A stretch of DNA of 5,435 bases from JBHIBR01 sp046759145 [NCBI: Nitrospinota bacterium] (GTDB lineage: Bacteria > UBA8248). The stretch covers positions 1 to 5,435 of the forward strand of contig JBHIBR010000143.1 in assembly GCA_046759145.1 (NCBI GenBank), given 5' to 3'. Under the pieces are notes generated by a model. It saw only the letters and a list, made by a program, of their open reading frames with translations. It made no database searches and was not told the DNA's origin. Positions 740 through 5,257 of this stretch are shown piece after piece (the stretch's first letter is position 1; each line of letters starts with the position of its first letter). Made by a program: the position numbers and the translations under genes.

Positions 740-768
740 AAAAACGTCACCCCTTGACAGGGGTCGAC
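740..768 (-). terminator. Possible intrinsic terminator or attenuator on the minus strand, upstream of murJ
   Basis: On the minus strand, GTC plus ACCCC (with one bulged G between them) pairs with GGGGT-GAC around the loop TGTCAA. One G and five Ts follow, at 744-740. That gives an 8-bp stem with a single bulge and a U-tract, the form of a short intrinsic terminator. It could stop minus-strand transcripts that read through from holA across rpsT before they reach murJ, or act as a murJ attenuator. The same bases also carry the -35 box of the rpsT promoter, so the symmetry could instead be a regulator-binding site. Confidence 0.4.
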
Positions 769-781
769 CGCGTGCTATGTT
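754..781 (+). promoter_or_regulatory. Sigma-70-type promoter of rpsT
   Basis: A consensus -35 TTGACA (754-759) is separated by 16 bases from a -10 TATGTT (776-781). The -10 box is preceded by TG one base away (773-774), making an extended -10. An A-tract (740-744) lies about where a proximal UP element would contact the RNA polymerase alpha subunit. Transcription is expected to start near 786-789, giving a leader of about 140 bases before the rpsT ATG. This is the only convincing promoter in the window and fits a highly expressed ribosomal protein gene. Confidence 0.8.
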
Positions 782-797
782 AAGCGGCCGGGTCGGG

Positions 798-887
798 CCC
801 CGCAAGGGGTCCCCAGCGTGCAGGCACGCTGGGGTACCCCGCAAGGGGCCCCCAACGCGCCCGCGCGCTGGGGTACCCCCCAAGGGG
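798..887. repeat. 39-base tandem palindromic repeat, 2.3 copies, in the rpsT leader
   Basis: Unit 1 is 798-836, unit 2 is 837-875, and a partial third unit is 876-887. Each full unit begins with CCCC-GCAA-GGGG, a stem closed by a GNRA-type tetraloop; the partial unit has CCAA instead. A long palindrome follows. In unit 1, arms CCCCAGCGTGC and GCACGCTGGGG (811-821 and 824-834) pair perfectly across two central bases. In unit 2, arms at 850-860 and 863-873 pair with one A-C mismatch. GGGGTACCCC occurs at 831-840 and again at 870-879. The GGGG at 806-809 could also pair with CCCC at 837-840, enclosing the long hairpin, in competition with the small GCAA stems. The repeat lies wholly in the predicted rpsT 5' leader. 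A related palindrome is found at the start of holA. Confidence 0.85.
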
Positions 888-929: not shown

Positions 930-1211
930 ATGCGGAGAAGTCCATCTGTCCTCAAGCGCCAGCGCCAGAACGAGCGCCGGCGTCGGTACAACGCCTCCAT
1001 ACGCCACCACGTCAAGACGGCCATCAAGCGCACCCAGCAGGCCCTCGAGACCAAGGAGCCCGCGGCCGCAGAGAGCGCCCTCAAGAGGGCCCACTCGGTC
1101 CTCTCCCGGGCCTCTGCCAAGGGGGTGCTCCACCGGAGGACGGCCGCCCGCAAGGCCTCCCGTCTCGCCAAGAGGGTCCACCGGGCGCTCTCCAGCGGGG
1201 AGAAGCCCTAG
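930..1211 (+). CDS. rpsT: Small ribosomal subunit protein bS20
   Basis: S20 binds 16S rRNA directly and is a primary assembly protein of the 30S subunit. The 93-residue product is close to the usual length and strongly basic, with the family pattern of helices rich in Arg, Lys and Ala. It shows SVLKRQRQNERRRRYN at 6-21, then the AIKRTQQAL stretch, and a C-terminal GVLHRRTAARKASRLAKRV region matching the conserved helix of S20. Arginine replaces lysine at many sites, as expected at high GC. The start is the ATG at 930 with AGGAG seven bases upstream. The frame is open back to an ATG at 777, but that codon lies inside the promoter -10 box and cannot be the start. It is monocistronic, divergent from murJ and convergent with holA, and the two convergent genes share their terminal CTAG. 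No downstream terminator is visible. Confidence 0.96.
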   Translation: MRRSPSVLKRQRQNERRRRYNASIRHHVKTAIKRTQQALETKEPAAAESALKRAHSVLSRASAKGVLHRRTAARKASRLAKRVHRALSSGEKP

Positions 1212-2281
1212 AGCCTCTGCCCCTCCCCTTCCCGGGCCCGGCGGAAGAGGAACAAAAAGCCCTCCAGCAGACGAGCGGGGTCGCTGCTCGCGCCCAGCTT
1301 GAGCTGGAGGTCCACCTTCCTCAGCTCGCCCATCATACTGCGCAAGAGCGCCCCCGGGAGCACCCTCGCCTGGGCCTCCACCTCTCGCGCCGCGCGGGGG
1401 GAGCGGAGGCCGAGCGCCTCCATCCTGGCCCTCTCTCCCATGCGTTTTCGGAGGAGCGCGCGGGCGACGAGCCAGCGCCGCAAGGCCCCCCGGAGGTAGC
1501 CCACCACCACCTCGGGCCTCACCCCTCCTTCGAGGAGCTTGCGGAGGCTGCGGAGGGCGCCCTCCCAGTCACCCCCCGCCAGGTGCCCCCTGAGGGCGAA
1601 GAGCTCCTCGGGGCGGCTCTCCCCCACCAGCGCCTCCACCGCCGAGGGGCCGATGGAACCTTCAGGCCCTCCGTAGAGGGCGAGTTTCTCCAGCTCCGCG
1701 GCGAGCCGGCCGAGAGGGGGACCGACGAGCTCGAGAAGCAACGGGGCCGCCCCCTCCTCGAGGTGGCAGCCCAAGCCCTCCGCGCGCCGGACGAGCCAGG
1801 CGATGAGCTCCTGTCCCCGGGGGGGTTCCAGGGCCACCGTGCGCGCCCGGCTCTGGAGCACGCGGAAAAGACGCCGCCGCCCGTCCGCCCTCCCCGCGAG
1901 GAACACCAGGCAGGAGGTGGCGGGCGGCCGCTCGGCGTAGGCCTCGAGCGCCTCCACCCCTTCGTCCCCCAGCGCCTCCGCCCGCCGCACCACCACCAGG
2001 CGCCGCAGGGCGAGGAAGGGCAGCTGGCGGGCCGAGGCGAGGACCGTCGGCAGGTCGGAGGATTCCCCATCGAAGCTCTCCCGGTTGAACTCGGGCGGGG
2101 CGCCCGAGAGGAGAAGCCCTTCGAGGGCGGCCAGGAACTCCTCGGCCAGAAGGACCTCAGGGCCCAGGAGGAGGTAGAGGGCCTCCGCCCCTCCTGCGCG
2201 AAGCTCCCGGAGGGCCTCCCCGAACCCCCCAGGGTCCCCAAGCGGCCTGCCGCTTGGGGTCCCCCTCCCAGCGCGCGCCAT
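1208..2281 (-). CDS. holA: DNA polymerase III, delta subunit (clamp loader)
   Basis: The delta subunit opens the beta sliding clamp within the clamp-loader complex. The 357-residue product has the family outline: a YLLLGPEVLLAEEFL segment near 36-50 (start of the N-terminal AAA-like domain, with no Walker A motif, as usual for delta), the stretch LPFLALRRLVVVRRAE near 87-102, an LVFLAGRADGRRRLF segment, and EELFALRGHLAGGDWEGAL and LLEGGVRPEVVVGYL in the C-terminal helical collar. The ATG at 2281 overlaps the lptE stop as TGATG and has GAGG seven bases upstream (2289-2292), suggesting translational coupling. Residues 7-17 (GTP-x5-GDP) are encoded by a palindromic element rather than by conserved sequence; the recognisable family sequence begins around residue 20. 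The gene ends at TAG 1210-1208, overlapping the rpsT stop. Confidence 0.92.
   Translation of the reverse strand: MARAGRGTPSGRPLGDPGGFGEALRELRAGGAEALYLLLGPEVLLAEEFLAALEGLLLSGAPPEFNRESFDGESSDLPTVLASARQLPFLALRRLVVVRRAEALGDEGVEALEAYAERPPATSCLVFLAGRADGRRRLFRVLQSRARTVALEPPRGQELIAWLVRRAEGLGCHLEEGAAPLLLELVGPPLGRLAAELEKLALYGGPEGSIGPSAVEALVGESRPEELFALRGHLAGGDWEGALRSLRKLLEGGVRPEVVVGYLRGALRRWLVARALLRKRMGERARMEALGLRSPRAAREVEAQARVLPGALLRSMMGELRKVDLQLKLGASSDPARLLEGFLFLFRRAREGEGQRL
2231..2264. repeat. Palindromic element inside the 5' end of holA
   Basis: Arms CCCCAAGCGGC (2236-2246) and GCCGCTTGGGG (2249-2259) pair perfectly over 11 bp around two central bases. They are flanked by GGGT on one side and TCCCC on the other. 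Arm length, the two-base centre, the CCCCA base and the GGG/CCC flanks are the same as in the rpsT-leader repeat. Read in the holA frame it encodes GTPSGRPLGDP; the leader copy read on the minus strand encodes GTPACLHAGDP in the same register. It therefore looks like a dispersed copy of the same family sitting in frame within a coding region. Confidence 0.7.
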
Positions 2282-2811
2282 CAGAACCCCTCGATGACGA
2301 GGCTCGTGAGGAGCTCGGCTAGCTCGGCCGCGGCCTGGTCGAGGGCATTGCGGCGGGCCTCGTCGCTGAGGGCGATGCTGGTGGCCACCGTGTAGGTCCG
2401 GTCGGACTCCACATCCTGCTGGAACACCACGCGGTCGCGGTTGCGGTCGCGCAGCACCACCTCCACCCGCACGCGCAGGCGGTACTGCGCCACGGCGTCC
2501 TCTCGGTTGAAGGAGATGGGCTCGAGGGAGTAGCTCTTGACCCTGCCCTCGAGGATGGCGTCCGCCACCTCCGTCTCCACCACCTGGAGGCGGCCGTCTT
2601 GGATGAACTGGTTCCGGACGGCGCTGCTGATGGTGGTCTCGATGCCCGGCTCGCGGGTGATGTTGTCGAAGATGGGGATGGAGATGCGATGGATGCCCCG
2701 CAGGGCCTCCGAGCGGGCGGTGCCGACCAGGCCGTAGCCGCAGCCCGGGAGGATCAGCAGGAGGGCCGCCAGGGCCCTAGAGCACGATGTTGACCAGCTT
2801 CTTGGGGACAA
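2281..2811 (-). CDS. lptE: LPS-assembly lipoprotein LptE
   Basis: LptE is an outer-membrane lipoprotein that plugs the LptD barrel and helps insert lipopolysaccharide into the outer leaflet. The chosen start gives 176 residues. It has a short n-region with two or three arginines, a hydrophobic ALAALLLIL core and a lipobox LPGC with the lipidated cysteine at residue 24. Family features follow: CGYGLVG after cleavage, ISIPIFDN, the [16 protein letters not shown] segment, GRLQVV, and [19 protein letters not shown]. The frame is open to an ATG at 2862, but that start would put the cysteine at residue 41 behind an implausibly long n-region and has no Shine-Dalgarno. The TTG at 2811 has GGAAGG six bases upstream. 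It overlaps the leuS end by 35 bases and the holA start by one base, so coupled translation is likely. The family call is from sequence pattern; LptE is a divergent family. Confidence 0.85.
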
Positions 2812-5257
2812 CGATGACCTTCCGGATGGGCCTGCTACCCACCCAACCCTGGATCTTCTCATCCGCGAGCGCCAGACTCTTCAGCCGCTCGTCGCTGGCA
2901 TCGGCTTCCACCCGCAGGCGGCTGCGGACGCGGCCGTTCACCTGGACGACCAGGGTGATCTCCTCCTCGGCCGCCACCTCCCCGTCCCAGCGCGGCCAGG
3001 CCGTCCGGGCGAGGAGCTCCGCGTGGCCCGTCCGCTCCCAGAGCTCCTCGGCGATGTGGGGGGTGAAGGGGCTGAGGAGGATGAGGAGGCTCTCCACCGC
3101 CTCCCGCAGCACCCCCCCCTCGCCGGGCGCGGCCTCGTAGTCGCCCAAGAGGTTGGCGAGCTCCATGAGGGCGCTGATGGCGGTGTTCATCTGGGAGCGC
3201 TCTTCGAGGTCGCGGGTCACCTTGCGGATGGTCTGGTGGACCTTCTTTCGCACCGCCCGCGCCTCGGGCCTGAGGCCCTCCAGGGGCGGGGGCTCGGGCG
3301 GGGCGGCGCGCACCGCCTGGGCGCGCGCGTTCACCAGGCGCCACATGCGGCCGAGGAAACGCGAGGCCCCCTCCACCCCGGCGTCGCTCCACTCCAGCTC
3401 CTTAGGGGGCGGAGAGGCGAAGAGGATGAACAGTCGCGCCGTGTCCGCCCCGTAGCGGGCCACGATGGCGTCGGGTTCCACCACGTTGCCGCGCGACTTG
3501 CTCATCTTGGCCCCGTCCTTGATGACCATGCCCTGGGTGAGGAGCTTCGTGAAGGGCTCCCCGAAGGGGAGGAGCCCCATGTCCCGCATGGCCATGGTGA
3601 AGAAGCGGGCGTAGAGGAGGTGCAGGACGGCGTGCTCGACGCCCCCCACATACTGGTCCACGGGCAGCCAGTAGGTCGCCTCCTCCCGCTTGAAGGGCCC
3701 CTCCCCGTGGTGGGGCGAGCAGAAGCGGGCGAAGTACCAGGAGGAATCCACGAAGGTGTCCATGGTGTCCGTCTCGCGGCGGGCCGGAGCGCCGCAGCGG
3801 GGGCAGGGGGCGGTGAGGAAGCTCCCCAGCGCCGCCAGGGGCGAGGGCCCGCCGAAGCGAAACTCGAACTCCAGGGGCAAGATGACCGGGAGGTCCCGGT
3901 CGGGGACGGGCACCGCGCCGCAGGCGTCGCAGTAGAGGACGGGGATGGGGGTCCCCCAGTAGCGCTGACGACTGATGCCCCAGTCGCGCAAGCGGCAGTG
4001 GACCGCCCGCTTCCCCATTCCCTCCCGCTCCAGGTGGTCCGCAACCCGCTCCTTGCCCTCCTCGCTGGGAAGCCCGCTGAAGGGGCCCGAGTTCACCATG
4101 ACGCCCGGCTCGACGTAAGCCTCAGACAGGCTCTCCGCATCGAGCCGCTCCCCGGGGGGCTCGATCACCACCCGGACCGGGAGGCGACACTGGCGGGCGA
4201 ACTCCAGGTCCCTCTGGTCATGGGCCGGCACAGCCATCACCGCCCCCGTGCCGTACTCCATCAGGACGAAGTTGGCCACCCAGATGGGGATGGCCTCCCC
4301 CGTCAGGGGGTTGCGGCAGAAGGCCCCCGTGAAGACGCCCCGCTTCTCGGCGCTCTCGGCGGTGCGCAGGAAGCGGTCCTCCCGGCTCACCTCCTCGGCG
4401 AAGCGCCGCGTCCCATCCTCATAGGGAGTCCCGCGGGAGAGCTCCCCCACCAGCGGGTGCTCCGGGGCGAGGAGCATGAAGGTGGCCCCGTAGAGGGTGT
4501 CTTGGCGGGTGGTGTACACGCGGATGGCCCCGGGCCGGCCCACCAGGGGGAAATCCACCTCGCAGCCGCTGCTCCGGCCGATCCAGTTGCGCTGCATGGT
4601 GAGCACCTGCTCGGGCCACCCCTCGGCGAGGCGGTCGAGCTCGGCCAGGAGCTCCTCGGCGTAGCGGGTGATGCGGAGGAACCAGCCCGAGACCTCCCGC
4701 TGCCTCACCGGGTGGCCGCAGCGCCAGCAGCAACCGCCCTCCACCTGCTCGTTGGCGAGGACGGTGGCGCAGCTCTCGCACCAGTTCACGGCCGAGAGGC
4801 TGCGGTAGGCGAGGTCCCGCTCCAGCATCCGCAAGAAGAACCACTGGTTCCACCGGTAGTACTCGGGGTCGCAGGTGGCCACCTCCCGCCCCCACTCGTA
4901 GCTGTAGCCCAGGCGCTTGAGCTGGGCCCGCATGGCATCGATGTTGCGCCGCGTCCAGAGGACCGGGTGGATCTGGTTCTCGATGGCGGCGTTCTCGGCC
5001 GGGAGCCCGAAGGCATCCCACCCCATGGGGTGGAGAACGTTGAAGCCCCGCATGCGCTGGAAGCGGGCGAGGGCGTCCCCGATGGAGTAGTTGCGGACGT
5101 GGCCCATGTGGATCTTGCCCGAGGGGTAGGGGAACATCTCCAGGAGGTAGTACTTGGGACGGCGGGGGTCGGCACCCGTCCGAAAGGCGTTCTCCGCCTC
5201 CCAGCGGGCCTGCCAGTAGGTCTCGACCGCCTCGAAGTCGTAACGGTCTTCCCTCAC
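2777..5257 (-). CDS. leuS: Leucyl-tRNA synthetase
   Basis: This class I synthetase charges tRNA-Leu with leucine using ATP and hydrolyses misacylated products. From the chosen start it has 826 residues, a normal bacterial length. In order: the HIGH motif as HMGH at 50-53; a zinc-type module with Cys160, Cys163, Cys177 and Cys180; the CP1 editing domain with the threonine-rich TTRQDT at 249-254 and the AHDQRD segment carrying the conserved editing Asp at 347; [10 protein letters not shown] near 426; a second cysteine set (443/446 and 485/488); [15 protein letters not shown] at 495-509; KMSKS at 584-588; an anticodon-binding helical domain; and the C-terminal domain with VVQVNGRVR. All active-site motifs are intact. 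The frame also opens at GTG 5281, but the GTG at 5257 has AGAGG six bases upstream and yields the typical N-terminus MREDRYDF. It follows nusB after about 63 bases with no terminator, and lptE begins within its 3' end. Confidence 0.97.
2818..2823 (-). promoter_or_regulatory. Ribosome-binding site deciding the lptE start
   Basis: GGAAGG on the minus strand lies six bases before the TTG at 2811, inside the last codons of leuS. It supports the short signal peptide over the upstream ATG at 2862, which lacks a comparable site. Confidence 0.5.

Follow-up and report, generated by a model that had tools for sequence, protein, structure and literature searches.

A palindromic repeat within the N-terminal coding region of holA: a probable copy of a short REP/RPE-like element

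The stretch of DNA under study (5,435 nt with a GC content of 71.6%, referred to as the window in the following) contains murJ (minus strand), rpsT (plus strand), holA, lptE and leuS (minus strand each) and raises the question of how a long, perfect palindrome came to lie within the coding sequence of holA. Palindromes inserted in frame are known above all from Rickettsia, and the original prediction had regarded the holA palindrome as an insertion of such an RPE-like kind. The gene encodes the delta subunit of DNA polymerase III (positions 1208-2281, minus strand; 357 aa; TIGR01128 at 9.6e-59, residues 35-344); its ATG at 2281 overlaps with the stop codon of the upstream lptE frame in the sequence TGATG (lptE: 2281-2862, minus strand; PF04390 at 1.1e-18; N-terminus provisional, the frame overlapping leuS), and it is adjoined on the other side by rpsT for ribosomal protein S20 (930-1211, plus strand; PF01649 at 2.7e-21; TIGR00029). 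According to the analyses presented here, the holA palindrome is probably a copy of a short REP/RPE-like element that was inserted after the start codon and is tolerated as a disordered tail: the repeat family, its translation, the disordered extension and the lack of the peptide in every orthologue examined bear out the prediction, whereas the insertion event in holA is one that we infer.

The holA palindrome (2236-2259; CCCCAAGCGGC-CT-GCCGCTTGGGG on the plus strand) is perfect, with arms of 11 nt and a 2-nt centre; together with its tag (2231-2235), the copy reads A-CCCCAAGCGGC-AG-GCCGCTTGGGG-ACCCT on the coding strand (2231-2260, minus strand). Arm and centre are equal in a first copy in the rpsT leader (806-835, minus strand: A-CCCCAGCGTGC-CT-GCACGCTGGGG-ACCCC; palindrome 811-834, CCCCAGCGTGC-AG-GCACGCTGGGG on the plus strand; tag 806-810), and the predicted agreement of the palindrome at holA codons 7-17 with the leader repeat in arm, centre and flanks was thus confirmed. 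To this earlier account, a promoter-like site (754-781, see below) and a third, degenerate copy have to be added: the latter (845-874, minus strand; tag GCCCC; imperfect palindrome 850-873) follows leader copy 1 in tandem at 39 nt, and its single stem mismatch becomes G.U when the minus strand is read. The order A-CCCCA-stem-TGGGG-tag is common to all three copies when read on the holA strand (ACCCCAAGCGGC-AG-GCCGCTTGGGG-ACCCT in holA, ACCCCAGCGTGC-CT-GCACGCTGGGG-ACCCC in leader copy 1, ACCCCAGCGCGC-GG-GCGCGTTGGGG-GCCCC in leader copy 2); the stems consist of different letters with the pairing kept, apart from the one G.U in leader copy 2, and the holA tag ACCCT is one letter away from ACCCC. 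On the plus strand, GGGGT, GGGGC and AGGGT stand ahead of the copies, and TA, TA and TC behind them, respectively.

In a DNA of such high GC content, the palindrome could be a coincidence of base composition or of protein-level selection, i.e. an ordinary Gly/Pro-rich HolA tail; Gly/Pro/Ala-rich HolA N-termini are indeed present in some Desulfarculia relatives. When perfect arms separated by 0-12 nt were scanned for, the palindromes of holA and leader copy 1 were the two longest in the window. Among first-order Markov sequences modelled on the window, an arm of 11 occurred in 1 of 100 cases for a centre of 2 and in 2 of 40 when the centre could have any length from 0 to 12 nt. Since such sequences sometimes attain this arm length, one palindrome alone would be weak evidence, but two with matching ends and flanks are not. 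The pattern GGGTCCCCA-N14-TGGGGTNCCC with up to three mismatches was matched six times, corresponding to three sites on both strands (806-839, 845-878 and 2231-2264), as compared with a mean of 0.04 in 200 shuffles, none of which contained six; the relaxed pattern CCCCAN{8,24}TGGGGACCCC, i.e. the strict pattern devoid of its left flank, was fitted exactly by leader copy 1 and by nothing in 200 shuffles of the window. Furthermore, holA codons 7-17 have a codon adaptation index of 0.34 versus a mean of 0.75, and of the 1609 overlapping windows of 11 codons in the local genes, 0.56% score as low; the rare codons CCA, CTT and CCT are located exactly in the holA palindrome and its tag. A chance palindrome was rejected on these counts, and coincidence or protein-level selection is considered highly improbable. 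The element is likewise not unique, as three copies are present in these 5.4 kb alone.

The predicted common reading register, yielding GTP-x5-GDP in both perfect copies, is evident from both translations: residues 7-17 of HolA read GTPSGRPLGDP in frame, and leader copy 1 gives GTPACLHAGDP on the minus strand (open reading frame 698-1171). For REPs at the 5' ends of open reading frames, the available part of PMC3733652 warns that they may in fact be extragenic. In the holA frame, there is no further ATG, GTG or TTG besides the ATG at 2281 between the preceding stop and the conserved Tyr-36; a downstream HolA start was ruled out on this ground, and the lone start codon answers the warning in the case of holA. 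As the hairpin lies downstream of the sole start codon, it must be translated. The AlphaFold model of HolA (16 sequences; mean pLDDT 85.8, pTM 0.57) places the first helix from residue 20 onwards, and residues 1-17 form the only segment with a pLDDT below 50; the model thus supports the palindrome peptide being part of a disordered N-terminal extension of HolA. With TIGR01128 starting at residue 35 and Tyr-36 being conserved, the element is indeed positioned between the start codon and the first conserved delta-subunit sequence, as had been proposed.

HolA orthologues were drawn from 109 loci matching HolA; in 92 of them, residue 36 was aligned. Within the 40 residues preceding the Tyr-36 position, all 92 were free of a GTP-x5-GDP-like peptide; conservation of residues 7-17 in palindrome-free orthologues, which would have spoken against an insertion, was accordingly not observed. 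In the orthologues with a single possible start (n = 36), 2-28 residues precede the Tyr-36 position versus 35 in the window HolA, and the latter would have 21-22 residues left after subtraction of 13-14; on account of this difference, the extra N-terminal length corresponds approximately to the length of the element. The farthest ATG was at least 35 residues from the Tyr-36 position in 7 of the 74 orthologues that have an ATG within 60 codons upstream. As the N-terminal length of HolA varies widely, up to 28 residues even in single-start orthologues, the extension alone is not proof of an insertion. The best HolA identities were about 37% among the matches listed (80 of 183 loci from genome contigs were kept, and nearer kin may lie beyond the matches listed; 231 of 297 Desulfobacterota genomes had a match), and no empty holA site of a close relative was found among the relatives reached at this identity. 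For LeuS, compared in 16, 63 and 149 genomes, the best identity was about 60% (62% over a part). Neither HolA nor LeuS comparisons revealed close kin of the window in the groups sampled; a relative search in three genomes gave no match at a cut-off of 1e-36, and viral contigs contained no HolA.

A different function of the palindromes would be that of local regulatory hairpins: cis-acting RNA structures would tune holA (by translational coupling with lptE) and rpsT, with the eleven coded residues being incidental. The calculated hairpins are strong, amounting at the holA copy to -27.8 kcal/mol on the plus strand (z -3.9) and -29.7 kcal/mol on the minus strand (z -2.2), with z values of -5.3 and -7.4 in the rpsT leader. 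Both leader copies lie between the rpsT start codon and the promoter-like site (TTGACA-16-TATGTT, 754-781, plus strand; 10 of 12 positions matched, one found versus a shuffle mean of 0.0) and, given this site, would fall in the rpsT 5'UTR; the G.U character of the sole stem mismatch in leader copy 2 would preserve pairing on the minus strand, and a post-transcriptional action of some 5'-end REPs is suggested in the available part of PMC3733652. On the other hand, the holA copy has to be translated, and Rfam gave eight weak matches in the window with none at the palindromes, as well as none at gathering score in ten pattern-match loci. A scan of positions 600-2400 for intrinsic terminators (hairpin plus T run) revealed none at the three copies. 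The sole terminator-like hairpin of this region (749-764, minus strand, with a T-rich tail) overlaps the rpsT promoter-like site on the murJ-ward strand; its number, one found versus 0.7 expected, is within chance. The region 798-887 additionally shows CCCC-GCAA-GGGG (twice) and CCCC-CCAA-GGGG interspersed with the leader palindromes, which could fold as short competing hairpins.

Beyond the window, the strict pattern was rare (2/245 Nitrospirota, 1/297 Desulfobacterota, 0/249 Pseudomonadota and 0/179 Acidobacteriota genomes); both Nitrospirota matches are hairpins, and the one from Desulfobacterota is a poor palindrome with 6 of 11 pairs. The relaxed pattern, however, was matched 162 times in 23 of the 245 Nitrospirota genomes as compared with 20 matches of the reversed control pattern, with 57 matches in genome G549, 34 in G694, 24 in G714, 11 in G523, 9 in G665 and 5 each in G737 and G639 (control: zero in each of them), whereas Nitrospirota genomes with one match were at control level, several such matches not being palindromes. 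From the Nitrospirota, 94 distinct copies were read, covering the copy-rich genomes only in part (e.g. 17 distinct copies versus 57 matches in G549); the ACCCC tag was the search criterion for these copies and was thus chosen rather than discovered. A perfect arm of at least 9 nt is present in 77 of the 94, comprising 47 different sequences, and in 14 Nitrospirota copies, arms of 10 nt flank a 2-nt centre. A copy from G694, CCCCAAGCGCTTGCGCTTGGGGACCCC, is close to the holA copy CCCCAAGCGGCAGGCCGCTTGGGGACCCT. With a size of 23-39 nt including the tag and up to 57 matches per genome, the Nitrospirota copies are short high-copy palindromes in the sense of REPs. The signature is not confined to the high-GC setting named in the earlier account: the richest holders found are Nitrospirota with mostly A/T-rich stems.

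Many copies of G549, G665, G639 and G694 have long flanks in common, and because of these shared flanks the hairpin is counted as part of larger repeats in the four genomes. In G714, G523 and G737, the flanks mostly differ, but four G523 copies are alike. At two further places, a larger imperfect palindrome encloses the hairpin, namely at locus L094 (tcattccgag...cgaggaatctc) and on the viral contigs L100 and L102 (cctcatcctgagg...ctcgaaggatg).

Whether the window copies and those of Nitrospirota have a common origin is a question of descent only, and an independent origin would be compatible with the in-frame insertion in holA: CCCCA...TGGGG hairpins may have arisen in many lineages, the window copies representing a purely local family unrelated to that of Nitrospirota. 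Nine IMG/VR viral contigs carry GGGTCCCCA...TGGGGTNCCC, mostly as near-perfect hairpins in high-GC DNA, in different contexts and with different stems except for the identical L100 and L102; in one of these contigs, an open frame of 1464 residues contains the hairpin at around residue 1335. In addition to these viral matches, independent origin is favored by the absence of the strict pattern from two phyla (Pseudomonadota and Acidobacteriota) and by the LeuS tree (32 rows), in which the window belongs to none of the sampled lineages. The shared ACCCC tag, in contrast, argues for a common source, as does the A ahead of CCCCA, which is present in 56 of the 77 Nitrospirota copies with an arm of at least 9 and in all three window copies; the same holds for the geometry (arm 10 and 2-nt centre in the 14 Nitrospirota copies versus arm 11 and an equal centre in the window) and for the tandem arrays, which occur in the window and at four Nitrospirota loci alike. 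Independent origin is therefore regarded as possible, although we rather lean against it; common descent would rest on ends, tag and geometry as read from the sequence, not on the stems. BLAST searches of plasmids with the leader, the holA region and one viral copy retrieved 1, 5 and 5 records, respectively, all of them short matches.

The fate of the element in coding sequences was followed in 85 of the 94 Nitrospirota copies (nine single copies with an arm below 9 were left out). Taking the longest frame per copy, open frames of at least 120 aa contain 36 of them, whereas 49 are outside (raw counts, which may include chance placements). For 27 of the 36 (in 26 open reading frames), the frame extends by 20 codons or more to either side. 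These 27 copies are read in at least five frames, in sense orientation with GTP (5), GDP (4) or another register (1), and in antisense orientation with GSP (9), GVP (5) or GPQ (3). A Pfam scan of 20 of the 26 open reading frames assigned domains to all 20: the insert is located within one domain in 11, between domains in 3, and terminal or outside in 6. Nine inserts are spanned by a single Pfam stretch (ABC ATPase, prepilin peptidase, HAMP, RecQ, Mfd, HATPase, guanylate kinase, M16 peptidase and SNase); the HemD domain was matched as two stretches, and for the DNA ligase the within-domain position is a judgement from the alignment to a solved ligase. The HemD copy, from genome G605, has its hairpin nested in a larger palindrome that lies in frame; the encoded protein combines TP_methylase and HEM4 domains.

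In the SNase gene, the 14-residue insert is absent in 24 of 24 relatives fetched, all belonging to one taxonomic order with the query (matches were obtained in 35 of 61 genomes, including the query's own; the best 25 were fetched, its own genome among them). The guanylate kinase has 13 extra residues at the insert compared with both solved structures aligned, and its copy is read in the same GDP register as that of holA (GTPSGRPLGDP in HolA, GAPKSRRLFGDP in the kinase). The insert is also missing from the DNA ligase and the pyruvate kinase used for comparison (one each), where it falls inside a longer unaligned stretch; the Mfd alignment has gaps around the insert. In the ligA product of G714 (residues ~121-140), a second repetitive peptide (GDMVGDMVSDMAGD) directly follows the palindrome insert and is unaligned in one solved ligase. 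RPE-like behavior, i.e. in-frame insertion in unrelated genes with absence from orthologues, was thus found for copies of the same signature elsewhere (in several frames, and with empty sites for one gene), and in part for holA, where the peptide is missing from the 92 orthologues. The occurrence of the signature deep within Nitrospirota genes of unrelated function also speaks against the local regulatory hairpins considered above; as the main function of the window palindromes, such a role is judged unlikely.

The substrates of TnpA-REP are hairpins with a tag at the foot, and REPs are mobile through a single-stranded hairpin. The element resembles the REP/RAYT systems in the hairpin and the tag at its foot but differs from them in the missing association of the Nitrospirota copies with a Y1 transposase: Y1_Tnp (PF01797) was encoded by 5 of 7 copy-rich and by 9 of 14 copy-free Nitrospirota genomes and absent from G694 and G714 with their 34 and 24 matches. 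A CCCCA...TGGGG hairpin was missing from each of the 30 Y1 loci fetched, which included 10 of the 14 Y1 matches of the copy-rich genomes. A RAYT/Y1 transposase partner was rejected on the basis of this lack of association in Nitrospirota and of flanking repeats at the Y1 loci. As for MITE features, the inverted ends follow from the palindrome, and no clear duplication was visible by eye at the SNase site, with boundaries uncertain by a few bases.

With the GTAG and CGTC REPs described in the available part of PMC3733652, the element has in common the size class, the one-sided tag on a hairpin, the occurrence as singles and tandem arrays, and the intragenic copies, many intragenic REPs being found there in genes of DNA synthesis and repair. 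It differs from them in its tag (ACCCC/GGGGT) and in its stems, which are mostly 10-12 bp as compared with 5-13 bp (GTAG) and 8-9 bp (CGTC) in Table 1 of PMC3733652; Nitrospirota are not among the phyla named in the passages of that paper considered here. Membership in either group was ruled out by the tag, neither tetranucleotide being present at the feet of the window copies. RPE, too, are palindromic repeats occurring both in intergenic regions and in frame within unrelated genes, and the several frames of the Nitrospirota copies extend this likeness; with an RPE reported within gmk in the accessible text of PMC2229807, guanylate kinase is a target in Rickettsia and in a Nitrospirota copy alike. 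Unlike the RPE, for which lengths of 105-146 bp and about 150 bp are given in the parts of PMC2229807 and PMC10969869 available, the unit is about 27-39 nt here, and its hosts belong to other phyla; the two are likened by behavior and description, not by RPE sequence. RPE-4 and RPE-6, which are shorter, are classed with the CGTC REPs in the same part of PMC3733652; the CGTC tag is absent from the element described here. A literature survey by titles (sequence strings, Nitrospirae palindromic repeats, coding palindromes and REPs) yielded no title describing a CCCCA...TGGGG family.

Taken together, the element is built as a hairpin of the form CCCCA-stem-loop-stem-TGGGG. Its conserved tag, ACCCC, adjoins the hairpin 3' and appears on the opposite strand as GGGGT, 5' of the hairpin; the letters of the stem vary between copies while complementarity is maintained. 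As a non-autonomous hairpin, it might be moved in trans by an enzyme, perhaps through a single-stranded hairpin, and would be kept where the frame is open and the site is a loop, a linker or a tail. In the window, an insertion of roughly 39 nt, equal to 13 codons, would have occurred directly after the holA start codon, and a tandem pair of the same element is present in the rpsT leader; being open in the holA frame and ahead of the folded domain, the holA insert could survive as a disordered extension of delta, for which it would be nearly neutral.

In a wider interpretation, which is offered tentatively and as somewhat doubtful at present, the copies would constitute an undescribed, phylum-crossing family (CCCCA...TGGGG with ACCCC tag, devoid of a RAYT partner) that spreads in free-living bacteria and has been fixed repeatedly in frame in essential enzymes such as HolA, LigA, Mfd, RecQ, Gmk and pyruvate kinase. 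If this were true, coding palindromes of the Rickettsia type would be a general bacterial phenomenon and would provide a natural route for adding small peptides to essential enzymes. The recognisable signature in housekeeping genes, together with orthologues free of it, makes the movement of the element, the neutrality of the peptides and the recurrence of replication and repair targets directly testable.
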